From assembly GCA_024362935.1 (NCBI GenBank), contig JANCRA010000025.1, positions 9,078,936 through 9,142,935 of the forward strand: a stretch of 64,000 nt of DNA, written 5' to 3'. Source of the stretch: Setophaga petechia. Taxonomy: Eukaryota; Chordata; Aves; Passeriformes; Parulidae. Both the position numbers and the translations under genes were made by a program. Below, piece after piece: positions 37,269 to 58,639 of this stretch (the first letter of the stretch is position 1; the number at the start of each line of letters is the position of its first letter). The notes below the pieces were generated by a model. The model had not been told where the DNA came from and searched no databases. It was given only the letters and a program-made list of their open reading frames with translations.

Positions 37269-37330
37269 TATCAGAATGATGATGTTTAACCATTTAAAAA
37301 ATAAAATGGTTAAACATCATCATTCTGATA
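37269..37330. repeat. Perfect inverted repeat with 27-bp arms
   Basis: The left arm (37269-37295, starting TATCAGAATGATG) and right arm (37304-37330, ending CATCATTCTGATA) are exact reverse complements around an 8-base A-rich loop. Pairing stops cleanly at both ends. The right arm runs directly into a GAGTA array and a CR1 tail, so the hairpin marks the 3' junction of that CR1 copy. Confidence 0.95.
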
Positions 37331-37393
37331 GAGTAGAGGAGAGTAGAGTAGAGTAGAGTAGAGTAGAGAGAATGGAATGGAATAGAATAGAAT
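37331..37393 (+). repeat. (GAGTA)n to (GAATA/GAATG)n array at a CR1 tail
   Basis: GAGTA units run to about 37368, then GAATG and GAATA units to about 37393, leading into reversed CR1 sequence. On the - strand this is the ATTCT-type CR1 3' tail with an altered unit. Confidence 0.9.
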
Positions 37394-37455
37394 ATTTTCA
37401 GCTGAAAGGGACTTAAAACTATCCTCAACTGCTTGACTCAGTAGGGGATTCTTTC
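37394..37455 (-). mobile_element. CR1 LINE 3'-end fragment
   Basis: TTTTCAGCTGAAAGGGACTT followed by AACTATCCTCAACTGCTTGA matches a reversed CR1 3' end of a more diverged type than the copies at 19600 and 46274. It is very short. Confidence 0.6.
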
Positions 37456-48628: not shown

Positions 48629-50824
48629 GGTGGAATATGAAAAAGGCTGGAAAATGTCTTCAGTGCCATGGAAACTGGGGCTTCTCAGGCTGCCAGCAGT
48701 GCCACCACCCTTGGCCACCCAGACACACAGTCTGCATGATGCTCAGGTTGTCAGGTTTGTATGCTGCTCCTGCCCCCTTCCTCACTTTGCCTGAGAGGAC
48801 ACTGGCAAATGGGGAAAAAACTAAGCAAATTCATGGGAAAATAAATATAACTGAAGATTCAGCTCAGCAGCTATGACATACAGGCACACACACACAAAGA
48901 AACAAGAAGACTTCTTATTCTCACTACAGGAATACAGAAACTCATAAAACCTGTAGCTGGTACAGGCAGGAGGTTTGTGCATGGCAGAGGCCAATGGAAT
49001 GGTGCCTGTAGACCACCTGACACAAAGGAAGACTATCTTCCTATCATAGTGAGTTCAGAAAGTCACCTCCCTCCTCACTGAAGGTGGATGTACAAAACTT
49101 CATTTTACTTATAAGGCCGCTGGGACCTGAACATCTTATGCCATTGAATAGCCAGAGTAACATCTCACAATTAAACTGCTGAGGGTCACAGCTCAGTTCC
49201 TCTTCTTTTGCATTAAGCTCAATATAAGCTTCCTTATGATAGAAATTCTCATTTTCCAATGTAATCAGTATTTAAATTGATGTTGGAGGAAAGAGAGAGG
49301 AGTTCCAAGCTTTAGAAAATGCACTCTAAATATAGGTCTTTCATTTACATTTAAAATGTGATGAATGAGGTTACTGGTTTCTGAAATATGCTACAGAATA
49401 TTAGCTGATATAAAGAAATCTCAAACAGGCTCAGTTTGGTGCTGTTGAAGATGAGATTGAAAGAGAAATCTTTCATGAGTCCATTCAACGAAGGAGGAGA
49501 GAGCTAACACAGAACCAATTTGTGCCTGGCCCAGTAGATGCTCTCTCACAGCTGATTAACCTGGGCAATGCCCACCACACCCCAGGGAGTAGCTCACCTC
49601 TGCTCTCACCAAGCCACAGCCTCCTGAAGCTTTTCTTTTGCACCAAGTGCAGCAGCATTTTCATCCAGTGCCAGTGCTGGCCCACAGGGTATAAGGAGAT
49701 TGGGGTCCTTCCTTGTCCTCAGCCTAGTGGGGAAGAACCCCTGGCTGGGGGTGACTTGGAAATGTCCTGGGCACAATGAAACAACCCATTTGTCATCTCC
49801 TCTAAAACAGACTGAAACAGGTGCAGAAGAAAACCCAAACATTATACAGCAGAGCAACAACCAACAATCTAAAGTTAGTAACTCTCTTTCCTTTTACATG
49901 AAAATACTGCCTTTCCAGTACTCATAGATGAAAGAACATGAATTTCTAAATGCCAGGAGGGGATTTCTGAGTGCTGGGAGAGAGAAATGCTGCCTGCTTC
50001 AATCCAGCAGAATATTTAAGGTCAGCCCATACATCCACACAGCTACCCTTACTTAAAAATCAGGTTGTATGCAGAAAGCCCGAAGACCCAGACAGGATCA
50101 TAGATTGCACATATTCTTAATTTAATTTGCCTTCTCCTCATTTAGACCATTTACTGGAAACAGTTTAACTCCCCACCCAGTCTGTCTCTTTTTGTACTTG
50201 CTTTTAATTTTGGGTGTGTTCAGTGTTTCAAGCCTGATCAAAACAGGGGGTTTGTATGGCTTGCTTTAACTCATTTCTGAAAATGGGGAGATTGTCCTGT
50301 TTCCTGTGCACTAGACCTTGACAAGCAACGGCTGAATATTTTCCCACACCTCCTCTAGCCTGACTGGGAGGGACACGCCTTTGTATGGACAGTTTATTAT
50401 GTTCAACATACATACATTGTATTACTAGGGGGGTAGGCTACAAACTGTGCTTTACAGAAAGGTCAGAGCAAACTTGAAATTTATATGAATGACTATGTGC
50501 ACTTAGAACTGCACAAAAGTTCCTGAGCGCATTCAACAGTTCCATATTTTCTCACTGCATTGCCTTCAAATACATTGAAGAATGTTTTAAGGATTCTCAT
50601 TTCTGTAGTAAGTAATCTCTTAATCAGGACAATATTGCCTCTGAAGCAGTTCAAATACATGCTTTTAACTTCATTTAAAGTCAAGTCCAAGATTAGATTT
50701 GAAATATCTTTCCTTTTGAATGATAGCTTATTTTAGCAGACCACCTGAGCATATTAGTGTGATTATTATGTTATAAAGCATATAAGAATAGTAATTTGTA
50801 TTAAATTACAATATTCTAGCTATT

Positions 50825-52459: not shown

Positions 52460-55400
52460 TTCTGAACAGGCGCAGTGGAGAAAGAATGGAAGATAATAGA
52501 TATAGTCTTCTAACTGCAAGTAGGGAGGGCTACTTTAATCAGGCCACTCAATTAAAAAAAAGGAATCTAATAATCTGTAATAATTAGGTTGAACAGCAGT
52601 TATTCCTATAGGAAGAACTTCCTACATTATGTTTTATTACTATAAGCTAGAGCTCCACAAATATTTACTAACTACTAATGAGTAGTTAGCAATGCTCCGG
52701 TTTTGAGTCTCACTAGTGAAAGCATCTGAAAATTGAAATAAAAAGGATATAATGCAGCTGGCTAAAATCTTTGACTGATCCTTCAGTAGTCATGAAAATA
52801 ATGCCAGTGAGGTTACATTAATTAAATGTCAGTTGTATTACTTATATCAGCAAGTCTTTCTCAGCATATGACATTCACAGTCTGACCCTTAGATGGCATG
52901 GAAGGGACAAAACTGTTACAATCATTTTTAGAGGTCTCTTTAGGAAAATTAATAGATGACAGGAATATTCCATTATCGGTGTTCATTCATTTAGGTAAAT
53001 TAAATAGTTTAACTCCTTTGTTCACTGAACAAATACTGGCTTCCCAATAATTTTCTGCCCCACTAAACAGTTAGAAGACAGAAACATTATTTATTGGTCA
53101 TTTTGGTTTCATAACTGCTCAATGTGCAACATAATTGTACAGATACATATTCAAAAGTAAAATCTGAATATTACATTTCTATAAAATTTCATTTTTTTTA
53201 AATTTGGGAAGACAATTTATTTAACAGTGGGACAATGAAGAGGAACAACACTGGAATACTCACAAGCATTTTGTGTGAGCAATGCTGAACCTGGCTGATG
53301 CCCCAAGCCCCTCCAGCAAGGGGCTGGCAGCAGTGGGGCTACTGGAAACTTCCCCAGCAGTGCTGATTTAGCAGCAGATAAATGCTTCCACTTTGTGACA
53401 AAGTCCCTGGATGCATGGCTGAGTTCTCTGAGTCCAGAAATGCTTCTCAGAGACTTTTCTTATGGCTCCCTGTTTCCAAAATCTCTCTTAAAAACCAGTT
53501 GCCCCTGGTCATTACTGTTCTTTCCTCCCTGGGTGCCTGACAGGACAGGTTTGGTCCCTACCCTCTCAACCCACCCCTGGTGACAGCTCATCCCACACTC
53601 CATGGCTGCAAGCAGAGGTCACTGGTCCCTGCCACCACAAACAAGGCTCCCACCTACATTTCAAGTGGACACCCACTTTCAAGTCAGCACAACCACACAA
53701 GAGCCCTTCACTCACATCACATTAATAAAAACCCAGATGCAAACCCAAACACCCCATGCCACAAATACTTCCAATATTATTAAGAATGATGGGGTCAGAT
53801 TCTCCACTGGCTGCAAAACAGCACTTGTTCAAAGACTGAAGGAGCAGCCCAGTAGACAAATGTGCATGGAAGACAAATCTAGGCCAAATAAGTTACTTCC
53901 CTGTTTGAGCCACAGAACTGATTGCACGCTAAAAGCTGGAATTTGCTTTGGTACTGGGTCCTTTGCTGGATTAGTGAGTGCCTGACTTTGTGTAACGTTC
54001 TCAGAACAAAAATTAGGTAATCACAGAGAAGTGCCACTATGTCCACACATCCCAGCTGTCAACATACATCTCCTAATTTTTTTTGTGAAAGATTGATTTC
54101 TCCCTCCAAAAAAATTTGCATATTTTGAAAAAAACCAAAATTATGTAAAGTTTTTATTAGTAGGATAGGGAAGAAGTATTTTCTCCCTTCAATATCACAG
54201 TTTTCTTCAAGTATCTTGATTGTTTGACTTTTTTTTCCCCTACAGTATAGTTTATGAGGATTTCCAAGGAGATGGTAAGTCCCAGACACAATATTTGGGT
54301 TATGGAAAATTGTCATCTACAGTATGTGACCAGAGAAAATTAGGTTCCTGTCTTGCAACTTCAGCCATATTGCACAGTTTTACAAATAAGCTCAGAATTT
54401 ATTAATACTTATGAAATCTACATGCTTGTAACTGTCTGCATATGTAAAGTTTGTAGGACTGAGTGTTGTAAGTGTGCATGAGAACTAAGCTACGTGGAAA
54501 AAAAGAAAAAAAAACCTGCATGTTGGCTGGAAAGCGATGGGACAAAGCTGAGGCAAAATGTGGAGAGCACAAATACTTAGAGTCTCATTCTGCTGCACCA
54601 TATGTGTACCACTGTCATTTAGACCATTAGGAAATTCAATACACCCCTGCTTTTGTCACTGCTCTCACTTCTGTCATTTTTGTCAATCCCAGCGTCCAAC
54701 GTGTGTTTGGCAAATTTGTCTACAATAAATAAAATCAACCTACCATAAGCACTTCTATTTATTTGATGGGTATATATAGGTCTACACTCAAGCTATCCAT
54801 TAAACCATCTGACATTTTTTTCTGATATCCCTTCCTCTTATTATGCTAAATCTTCTCCCCAGTCTTTCTGCTTCTGTTTTTGTCAACTTTCAGCAACACT
54901 GAAGCACAAGATCACAAGGAGTCATAGAGCATAAGTTTGTTATGGTTATAAGCTGGTTATATCCACAGCTAATTCATCATCCAGTCTTTGCAAAATGCAG
55001 AGAATGTCACTGTAAATGGAATGGCATTGCACACTCCCTGGCAAATAGAAGAAAACCACAAGACCTCTTTATCATTGATCTCCCTTAGGTAGACTTGACA
55101 AAATGATACAAGAAGCTGACACAGACATCAAATGAAATATGTGTGTAGGGGTGACCAATTCAAATAAAGAACAAGTTATTTGGTGGCATCTGGGGGAGCA
55201 AAGGTTTATGAGACCACAGAGGTGCTGACAGTAATGGGATTAACCTTATTTGAGTAGAAGGAACTCTTCTCCTATTTGTTCTGCAGCTAATCTGAAGCAG
55301 CATGCTCTGAGCTCTGACTGCCAGACTCTGCTGCCTGCAGCCCAAAAGTCCTGCAAGGCTCCAAGCTAAACCAGCTTCAAGTGCAGCAGTAAACCCATGA

Positions 55401-55572
55401 AACAGCCCCATGCAAGAAGGATACGCGCAACAGGGTTACACTGCCTGAGGGGGCTGCAGAGACTCTGCCTCTGCAGGCCTCCAGCAGCCCATGAGACAGA
55501 TCAGATTAGTCAGGATTAACACACAATATCGATATAAAAATAATAATAATAATTAATATATATATAAAAACC
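52460..55572. other. Non-coding stretch, no gene seen
   Basis: AT-rich unique DNA, with a GC-richer segment near 53280-53760 and another near 55160-55500. Short frames there have no domain. A 9-bp-arm hairpin (52668-52689) is probably chance. Confidence 0.45.
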
Positions 55573-55665
55573 CTAAGACTAACCACTGAATTTCAGATAG
55601 TCAGAAGAGACCTCAGGGTGTCTGGGAAGGCATAGATGTGTATATGATATTGTATCATATATAAA

Positions 55666-55700
<35 letters not shown>

Positions 55701-55777
55701 ACATATATGTTGTACATAATTATATATAGCTGTTGTGTATATATATAAAGCTGATACATATATATATAACATATGTA

Positions 55778-55829
<52 letters not shown>

Positions 55830-55961
55830 TATATACAACACATATGTTATATATATATATGTATGTTTTTTATATATGATACAATATCATATACACATCT
55901 ATGCCTTCCCAGACACCCTGAGGTCTCTTCTGACTATCTGAAATTCAGTGGTTAGTCTTAG
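55573..55961. repeat. Large AT-rich palindrome with 101-bp perfect arms
   Basis: Positions 55573-55673 and 55861-55961 are exact reverse complements over 101 bases. About 70 bases of each arm are ordinary mixed sequence (CTAAGACTAACC ... GGCATAGATGTG); the rest is AT-rich. Inward, one mismatch (55677 against 55857) is followed by (TA)n runs that are about 14 bases longer on the left, and then by a diverged inverted pair (ATAACATAT.TGTTGTA). Pairing stops abruptly at the outer ends and no target duplication is evident. The structure could form a hairpin or cruciform. Open frames of poly-IY type here are artefacts. Confidence 0.95.
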
Positions 55962-58639
55962 TTTTGTGCTAAATTTTCTTCTGAGAAAAGCAGTACCTAA
56001 CAGCAGGGAGTTTGCTCTCTAACATTAACCTGATTGAAATAAAATTCAGACTGATTCACTTCCTGGGAGATGGACAGGAGTTTTTCCTTCCTGAGATTCT
56101 CAAAGGAAGGGCTGTAAAGTCCTTGCTAAATCTCCCATTTAAACCATGTGCTTGAACATAACTGTTAACAAAAAAAAAAAAATACAGAGTAAATAAAAAG
56201 TGGGAAATAAAGAAATTTTTTCCCCTTTTAAATTTTTGACCCTGAAACTGCTCATGTGTGACAGGAGAATGGCAGTAGGGTATCTCCCAAACTCTACTGA
56301 GTTCATGGCTCACTTCAGCATGTTGGAGATGGTAGCAAGGCCAAAACACCCAATAAACATTTGTGATGATTTAGTAAACAAAGCTGAAAAAGCTGAAACA
56401 AGCCTAATTCCAAAAGAATTTAATATGTTTTTCTCAGAAAAAAAAAAATTCTCGATATTCTGAGTAAGGATTGATTACTCTCTATGTGAATGGAGTTAGA
56501 AAAAATATATACAGCAAGATTTCAAATACACAACCACACATTTATTGGCACATATAATCAACACACATCCCTCATTAATCTCCCATTTAAGCCAATTTGG
56601 TTCATATGATCTACATAAGATGTGTATTAAACATGGATGAGAGCAACACAATTCAGCTGTTCTTAAAGGACCACTGTTGCATAGTGGTCCTAATCTGCTG
56701 GACTGACTCCTTGCTAAAAAGAGAAGTATTCCTTGCCTTTGACACAGATAGAGAAATCACTGAGGAGAAGTGGGATATGCACTGGCTGAGCAAAAGGGCA
56801 GCCATCATGAACCAAGGAGATCACAAGAGCCCTGAAATACAGGTAATGCACGACAGGACCAAGGGCAATGCTGCACAGCCTCACAGTGTGCTTGCTCACA
56901 CCACTGCAGGGCAAAAAAGCTGATTAGGATGTTCATCACATAAAACAAGTGGTTTACTCCTTTCTCCAGAAAAAATAATTGCTGCTGCCAGCATTATGGG
57001 CTAGGGAACTTCCTTCTCACAAAGGAGAGAAAGATAATAAAATGTGTTCCCCTACTGAAAAGTATCATGCCCTAATGAAAAATAGTGCTATTTACTGCCT
57101 CACCTGCAGAAAATAGCAACAGGATAATTCAAGGGAAAAGCACTTTTTTTTTTTTCTTAGTCTTCTCTGTGTGCACTTGCACAACTGAATCAAACATCAG
57201 CCTGTGCAGAGGCTGTGATCAGCACTGCAAGAGCAGCAGATCCCAGCTCTGGAATCAAAAGGCCTGATTTTGATACATAAGAATGAAAAATGGGAGTGGA
57301 TGGAAGGACCCTGGAAGCCACATGGTGGGTGTTCACTTGACAGCCTGCCCAGCAATGCCGAGGCCATGAGTTTGCCATATGGGCTGCTCACTGCAGGGCT
57401 GGACTTGATGATCCTTGTGAGTCCCTTCCAGCTCAGAATATTCTGTTTCTGCATCATCATGTCATCTCTGTGGCACACAGACACAGAAAAGACAGGGCTG
57501 CTTGTGAGCAGACAAGAGTGGAATGCTGCAACAAGGCACATGCTTCTTTCTGCTTATAAAGAGAAATTTCAAATCCAGTGAATTGTAAAATATTGCTTGA
57601 AGTTGGCTTTGAAAGACATTTCTTTCTGCCTTTGTTTTTGGAGAGAGGGGGAAGAGGATGGGGCAGCATGGGGAAAGGAGGTCCTGTGTATGTTTATGGA
57701 AAATATGATAGTGATGAATGCTTACATGACAATAATCCTGAATCAAGATCTCACATATCACATTTCACCTGAGAAACTTTGTGTGCTGCTCCTGACAAAT
57801 CCCAAAGGACTGTGAATGGTTCATCTGCCAGCTCTCCCTCATGCCAGTTTCATGAACAGTCTTTCACTTCACTTTTCCTTTTCCATCCTCCATGTTCTGC
57901 AAGCAGCATTTCCACCATCCCTCTGGGTAGCCTTCAGAAGGGAGCTGGCAATACCTTCACTGCTTGTCAACTCTTCCTCCTAACACCCATGAAAGGAGAC
58001 ATGAGAAAATTCTCAACTGACACAATTTGCTGTAATCAATTAAAATTTAATTTGCAGATAGTTCAAACCCACCCAATTTAATTTTGAATGACACTAAAGC
58101 TAAAAAACCTCTGCAGGAAAACTTTCAGTGCCTTCCCCCATTCAGGCACTGTCTGGATGATATGAAATCCAGAAAGCACACAAGTTGTAAAGGCAGCATG
58201 CTCAAATTAATCTTACCCTCCCATACTAAGCTCCTCTGGAAAAAAACACTAACTCATTTCAGGTTTGAGTATTCAGAATCTAAAACAGCTCTTATCTAAA
58301 CTTGCCTATGTGAGATTTACAAATGAGAAAAGAACAAATAAGGAGTAATTTAAATTTTAATTTAAAACCCCTCCATTTTCTTATCCCTTATCAAACTGCC
58401 AGCATTTTTCCTGCTAACAATGAGCTGAGTGTCATGGGCACAGCACAGCCCCCTACCACAAACCAAGTAATCTCTTTCATCTAAAACCCTGATCCCTTTA
58501 ATAAACAAAATACGAAAAGGCAGTCAAAATTACGCTCTGGCTTTATGAAAGAAGCAGGGAAATCCTTAGAGCACAATCCCCTACTTGTTATTTTCACAGC
58601 CCATGTGACCCAAAGTCATTCTGAAGGATAAAAAGACAG
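55962..58639. other. Non-coding stretch, no gene seen
   Basis: AT-rich unique sequence apart from a CR1 3' end at 57375. A 9-bp-arm stem (56667-56691, AGGACCACT/AGTGGTCCT) lies inside a 108-codon frame without a recognised domain. Confidence 0.45.
57375..57455 (+). mobile_element. CR1 LINE 3' end, + orientation
   Basis: CACTGCAGGGCTGGACTTGA, TGATCCTTGTGAGTCCCTTC and CAGCTCAGAATATTCTG mirror the direct CR1 3' end (GGTTGGACT.GATGATC, GTCCCTTCCAAC, ATTCTATG). Its left boundary is unclear; similarity may start near 57290. Confidence 0.7.

Follow-up and report, generated by a model that had tools for sequence, protein, structure and literature searches.

A perfect 104-bp inverted repeat around a TA-rich tract in Setophaga petechia, probably a recent templated duplication of known type

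How does a long palindrome come to have outer arms that agree at every base around a centre without detectable symmetry? This question is raised by a locus in the genome of Setophaga petechia, at 55573-55961 of a 64,000-nucleotide stretch (hereafter the window; C25:9078936-9142935). Here we describe the locus, compare it with other TA-rich loci of the same genome and weigh the ways in which its second arm could have been made.

Anatomy of the palindrome and its uniqueness in the genome

The earlier note on this DNA described an AT-rich palindrome with perfectly matched 101-bp arms. The inverted repeat is indeed present at this position and its arms are identical throughout, but their exact length is 104 bp. 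The left arm (55573..55676, + strand) and the right arm (55858..55961, - strand) are exact reverse complements of each other and differ at 0 of 104 positions. Both are adjoined directly by the TA-rich interior (55677..55857), which is 181 bp long and 87.8% AT, and the two halves of which are no more symmetric than TA-rich sequence is expected to be. Its longest uninterrupted TA run (55781..55820, 40 bp) is centred on 55800.5, 33.5 bp to the right of the arm axis at 55767. AT content was 65.4% in the arms, 75.8% over the whole palindrome and 60.2% over the 64-kb window; since the outer 70 bp of the arms are only 55.7% AT, the earlier description of about 70 bp of ordinary sequence in each arm holds. 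Directly outside the left arm lies an AT-rich stretch (55524..55572, 89.8% AT), which has no counterpart to the right of the palindrome, where 55962-56010 is 61.2% AT.

The signal is far stronger than anything else in the window, where the second-longest exact inverted repeat detected was 27 bp. When the window was simulated 20 times with an order-4 Markov model, the longest inverted repeat was 12-17 bp, the search seed being 12. Folded as single-stranded DNA, 55560-55974 gave -154.5 kcal/mol as against a shuffle mean of -38.4 (z = -28.7), and none of 100 shuffles was as good.

We searched the genome (1.22 Gb in 687 contigs) for the arm and for both flanks. The first 73 bp of the arm had two matches, both inside the palindrome itself. 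The left flank (55180..55523, 344 bp) and the right flank (55962..56420, 459 bp, starting right at the end of the right arm) each had a single match in the genome. As the search skips very common words, these single-locus results are strong rather than absolute. An arm that occurs twice at one locus, between flanks that each occur once, is unlike a pair of dispersed repeats, and local copying of the second arm is thus the most likely account. A 25-base pattern from the arm had no match in viral contigs.

Inverted termini around an AT-rich core are also the outline of a short non-autonomous transposable element, and two dispersed-repeat copies in inverted orientation would look alike; one of the loci described below, L108, may be such a case. 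For the window palindrome, we regard an element with terminal inverted repeats, or an inverted pair of dispersed repeats, as scarcely credible and rejected both, because the arm had no further copies in the genome search, no direct repeat borders the arms, and the arms of similar loci do not resemble one another. A target-site duplication was looked for at the arm ends and was not found, the left flank ending in AAAAACC and the right flank beginning with TTTTGTG. Near the outer arm ends (within about 3 nt), three to four bases do match at the window palindrome and at two of the other loci (L025 and L012), but none of these matches stands directly at the junction, and they were not counted as evidence.

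Inverted arms at other TA-rich loci

A 501-bp query around the palindrome gave 39 other matches in the genome, all of them through its TA-rich part (about 131-408 of the query) and none through the outer arms. Adding 10 loci found with the TA-rich query of L018 and 11 of about 31 new ones found with the interior of L025, we assembled 60 TA-rich loci, which were picked by similarity and not randomly, so that some may be mutually related. The 64 controls comprised 40 segments of 2.5 kb placed at fixed round coordinates and 24 other 2.5-kb bins of the window, drawn from its first 62.5 kb. Matches to the L018 query were in many cases clustered on C68, C170, C177, C184, C254 and C259, at up to 94% identity, which suggests a TA-rich satellite or amplified family.

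Inverted arms were scored where an exact inverted repeat was 20 bp or longer and contained 6 or more G or C; they were present at 6 of the 60 other TA-rich loci and in 1 of the 64 control segments (Fisher p = 0.056). An earlier count, with 49 TA-rich loci, had given 4/49 versus 1/64 (p = 0.16). By this original criterion, TA-rich loci show no significant excess of inverted arms. When an AT-rich stretch of 100 bp or more was required, post hoc, inside the repeat, the count became 6/60 versus 0/64 (p = 0.011), or 5/60 versus 0/64 with L108 set aside (p = 0.024).

The six positive loci vary considerably in form. L025 has 139-bp arms with one mismatch around a TA-rich interior of 532 bp, L115 has perfect 54-bp arms around 456 bp, and L012 has perfect 22-bp arms around 556 bp of 94.4% AT. 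At L058 (569-714 and 1031-1063), about 35 bp of ordinary sequence is present in three direct copies on the left, the unit together with its TA run being spaced at 56 bp, and in one inverted copy on the right of the AT tract. L021, with 37 perfectly matched bp in a 79-column alignment of about 92% identity, is a weaker case, as its arms are themselves AT-rich. The arms of L108 (430-572 and 1796-1936) agree at 87% over 143 columns and enclose 1.3 kb of 78.8% AT; they may go back to an old fold-back copy or be a dispersed repeat present twice in opposite orientations. At the score used, no mutual similarity was detected among the arms of these six loci and the window palindrome.

We also carried out a masked control on the first 40 loci, in which low-GC sequence was masked and the left and right sides of each locus were compared with each other and with 1560 cross-locus pairs, the best of which scored 17. 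Only three loci exceeded all 1560 pairs, namely L025 (101.5), the window palindrome (60) and L030 (21.5). L012 scored only 12, a value equalled or exceeded by 131 cross-locus pairs, because its arm is short. L030 (about 985-1052) has the reverse arrangement, a GC-richer imperfect hairpin between two TA runs.

The most informative of these loci is L025, the left arm of which belongs to a dispersed repeat, with 38 other places at 88-91% identity among the 40 matches listed. From this family, for which 40 of 1231 candidates were scored, six sister copies were aligned. In all six, homology to the left arm extends leftward past the outer end of the arm, as it does in L025. Rightward, all six carry a short TATATATAT and then, 14 nt on, the sequence that in L025 adjoins the right side of the right arm, to which they are 87-95% identical along 74-85 bp. 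The right arm of L025, in contrast, matches the family over the arm itself and no further. In the 113 columns that are invariant among the six sister copies, 5 differences from the family are common to both arms of L025, 1 is confined to the left arm and none to the right. The uninterrupted sister copies and the shared differences thus mark the left arm as the ancestral one. The simplest account of L025, as read from this alignment, is a family member in which 14 nt gave way to a TA-rich stretch together with the adjoining 139 bp in inverted copy. Within the interior (1103-1634), the inner edge of the arm is repeated in both orientations, TATAATGCTGTATA occurring five times and TATACAGCATTATA four times, which suggests repeated switching, or expansion of a palindromic unit, during or after the event. 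Dispersed-repeat sister copies of this kind were absent for the window flanks and for L012:900-1137, each of which had one match in the genome search.

These loci also bear on whether the window palindrome is a product of sequencing or assembly. Inverted duplications are a known class of artefact, and the earlier note had named fold-back assembly as one of three possible origins; a fold-back read or an inverted chimera might have been built into the sequence. A fold-back read should, however, match best at its centre, and here the centre is unmatched and the outside matched; the arm axis (55767) differs from that of the longest TA run (55800.5), and similar structures with unrelated arms recur at other loci. 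An artefact is therefore very improbable. The same is indicated by the right arm, which continues into single-match genomic sequence with no Ns, and by L025, in which the one difference between the arms is a change in the left arm only.

The interior and the age of the arms

The earlier note took the TA-rich interior for a continuation of the palindrome that has drifted in length and sequence. We examined this by aligning the halves of the interior inward from the arms and comparing them with simulated TA-rich sequence. For the window palindrome, simulations were as good in 63/150 and 92/150 cases, and in another run in 150/200 and 156/200; with Markov orders 2, 3 and 4, 97, 99 and 106 of 500 were as good. 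The weaker order-1 null points the opposite way, with 11 of 500 simulations as good. In most tests, then, the halves match no better than simulated TA-rich sequence, and the idea of a drifted continuation finds no support in them. The outcome varied by locus. By the same test, the interior of L115 is palindromic (0/200 simulations as good at both orders), as is that of L058 (3/200 at both orders), while L021 was ambiguous (0/200 at order 2 and 71/200 at order 4). The interiors of L025 (65/200 and 138/200) and L012 (128/200 and 118/200) are not palindromic. Thus a symmetric trace is kept at some loci and absent at others, and L115 and L058 indicate that interiors can decay from a symmetric start.

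The age that identical arms allow was estimated with a mutation rate borrowed from another species, the zebra finch, for which 2.0e-9 per bp per year is reported (PMC12047795). At this rate, two 104-bp arms are expected to accumulate 0.42 differences per Myr, so that perfect identity is ordinary for a copy of a few Myr or younger. The probability of seeing no difference is 0.66 at 1 Myr, 0.435 at 2, 0.125 at 5 and 0.016 at 10 Myr, and the 95% age limit for arms without any mutation is 7.2 Myr.

Arm-to-arm gene conversion, another origin named in the earlier note, would make the palindrome older, with conversion or quasi-palindrome correction keeping the arms identical while the TA-rich interior drifts. 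The perfect outer arms around an unmatched interior fit such a history, and in the best alignment of the interior there were about 3 substitutions in 41 columns as compared to 0 in 104 outer columns (Fisher p = 0.02). This comparison is undercut by the symmetry tests, which gave no sign of a former match in the window interior, although the palindromic interiors of L115 and L058 leave room for an interior that was once symmetric and has decayed. In yeast, template switching is known to homogenise the arms of inverted repeats (PMC8604942), and the yeast case resembles ours in having perfect arms around a non-matching spacer. The arms described there are short, of at least 7 bp, with spacers of at most 70 bp, and at the window palindrome no imperfect ancestor was seen. 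At the zebra finch rate, arms without a single difference may be as old as about 7 Myr, and gene conversion need not be invoked. We therefore consider it unlikely and prefer recent inverted duplication, the remaining origin that had been named.

Origin by fold-back copying and its consequences

In our reading, the window palindrome is quite probably a short-range inverted templated duplication seeded in a TA tract, a mutational scar without demonstrated function. This accords with the suggestion of a recent inverted duplication, and its support comes chiefly by analogy, from the same anatomy at L025 in the same genome, where the before-and-after record captures such an event. In the proposed sequence of events, the 3' end of a strand lying inside the TA-rich tract would fold back by TA-TA pairing during replication or repair, copy about 100 bp of neighbouring ordinary sequence in reverse, and rejoin the locus beyond the far side of the tract. 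Copying of the neighbour in reverse would leave outer arms that match perfectly. The interior could then be the imperfectly paired region from which copying was primed, or it may once have matched and been scrambled later by microsatellite mutation. The pathway may have been a template switch at a stalled fork or, at a break, fold-back priming followed by end joining.

Both pathways have described relatives. Short-range template switches, which give rise to perfect inverted repeats, occur in excess at poly(dA:dT) and AT-rich sequence; in great apes, where they were analysed with a four-point model, the median copied length is 12 and the longest copy 128 (PMC7954356). The likeness lies in nearby sequence copied in reverse to give a perfect inverted repeat in AT-rich surroundings and, at L025, in the original sequence resuming after a small loss. 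At the window palindrome, we found an adjacent reverse-complement copy and an AT-rich switch point (interior 87.8% AT); at L025, an ancestral sequence that lacks the copy and then resumes was found in 6/6 sister copies. The 104-bp arm of the window lies within the great ape range, near its maximum of 128, whereas the 139 bp of L025 lie above it (PMC7954356). What differs from the switches described there is the TA-rich interior between the arms, which at L025 has grown from a short TATATATAT. In yeast, fold-back priming at breaks proceeds by intrastrand annealing at short inverted repeats, which primes copying of the same strand (PMC10622511). As described in that source, it yields a hairpin-capped chromosome and a large inversion, whereas here a copy of about 100 bp was made and the locus was rejoined. 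As for size, among perfect inverted repeats with spacers of at most 8 bp, the longest reported from a human genome has 140-bp arms (PMC13155455).

The earlier note also likened the locus to the human palindromic AT-rich repeats (PATRR11 and PATRR22) and raised the possibility of a fragile site. PATRRs are described as several hundred bp long, more than 90% AT, nearly perfect, without a spacer, and breaking at the centre (PMC4940405). The window palindrome does not share this character, being 75.8% AT with arms of largely ordinary sequence, and having a 181-bp interior that lacks detectable symmetry. In yeast, spacers shorter than 9 bp block replication efficiently, and both breaks and fork blocking drop sharply at 9 bp or more (PMC8053094); the 181-bp interior therefore places the locus outside the strongly fork-blocking class reported there. 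A long hairpin is nevertheless energetically favoured on single-stranded DNA, and stems longer than 30 bp with more than 85% identity and spacers below 2 kb have been called recombinogenic (cited in PMC4319165). By comparison with these systems, fragility appears not especially likely with an interior of 181 bp, and a PATRR-like site at which recurrent breakage causes rearrangements seems improbable.

Taken alone, the window palindrome is a mutational scar of known type, if a long one, and its chief interest is as a lead to similar loci. L025 offers a view of the birth of an AT-rich palindrome and of the expansion of its TA core from sister copies, with no need of a second species. We tentatively put forward a wider scheme, which we consider possible though rather doubtful, in which TA-rich tracts of this genome would be a recurrent seedbed of palindromes. 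In this scheme, a short TA stretch would fold back, tens of bp to more than 100 bp of unique neighbouring sequence would be copied in reverse, the locus would rejoin and the TA interior would grow to hundreds of bp, such that about one in ten long TA-rich tracts would have inverted unique arms. Events falling inside dispersed repeats would leave ancestral sister copies, from which the origin of AT-rich palindromes could be reconstructed without an outgroup; human PATRRs would represent a mature form of them. If the pattern is genome-wide, such events could be counted, dated and compared within one assembly, and it could be tested whether long TA tracts arise by replication slippage alone or with the help of fold-back. 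Hairpins of this kind also have practical importance, since cloning, amplifying and assembling them is difficult (PMC4940405). None of the titles listed in the open-access literature concerned such structures in birds, which is no claim of their absence from print.

The rest of the window gave few other features. There was no match to Rfam in the window. Its stop-to-stop ORFs of 110 aa or more number 31; 10 of these were compared with Pfam, and none matched at the curated cut-off. The start of the ORF at 49414-49779 (+) resembles a protein-coding exon by eye, and this ORF had no Pfam match and no convincing match among PDB sequences. The window also contains sequences which, from their motif, we take to be CR1-like 3' ends, in keeping with avian DNA. 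A sequence resembling such an end stands with a TAGAG-type tandem array (37328-37394) directly after the 27-bp inverted repeat mentioned above, the perfect arms of which (37269-37295 and 37304-37330) are separated by an 8-nt AT-rich loop. This smaller inverted repeat (37269-37330) is possibly a small fold-back event as well.
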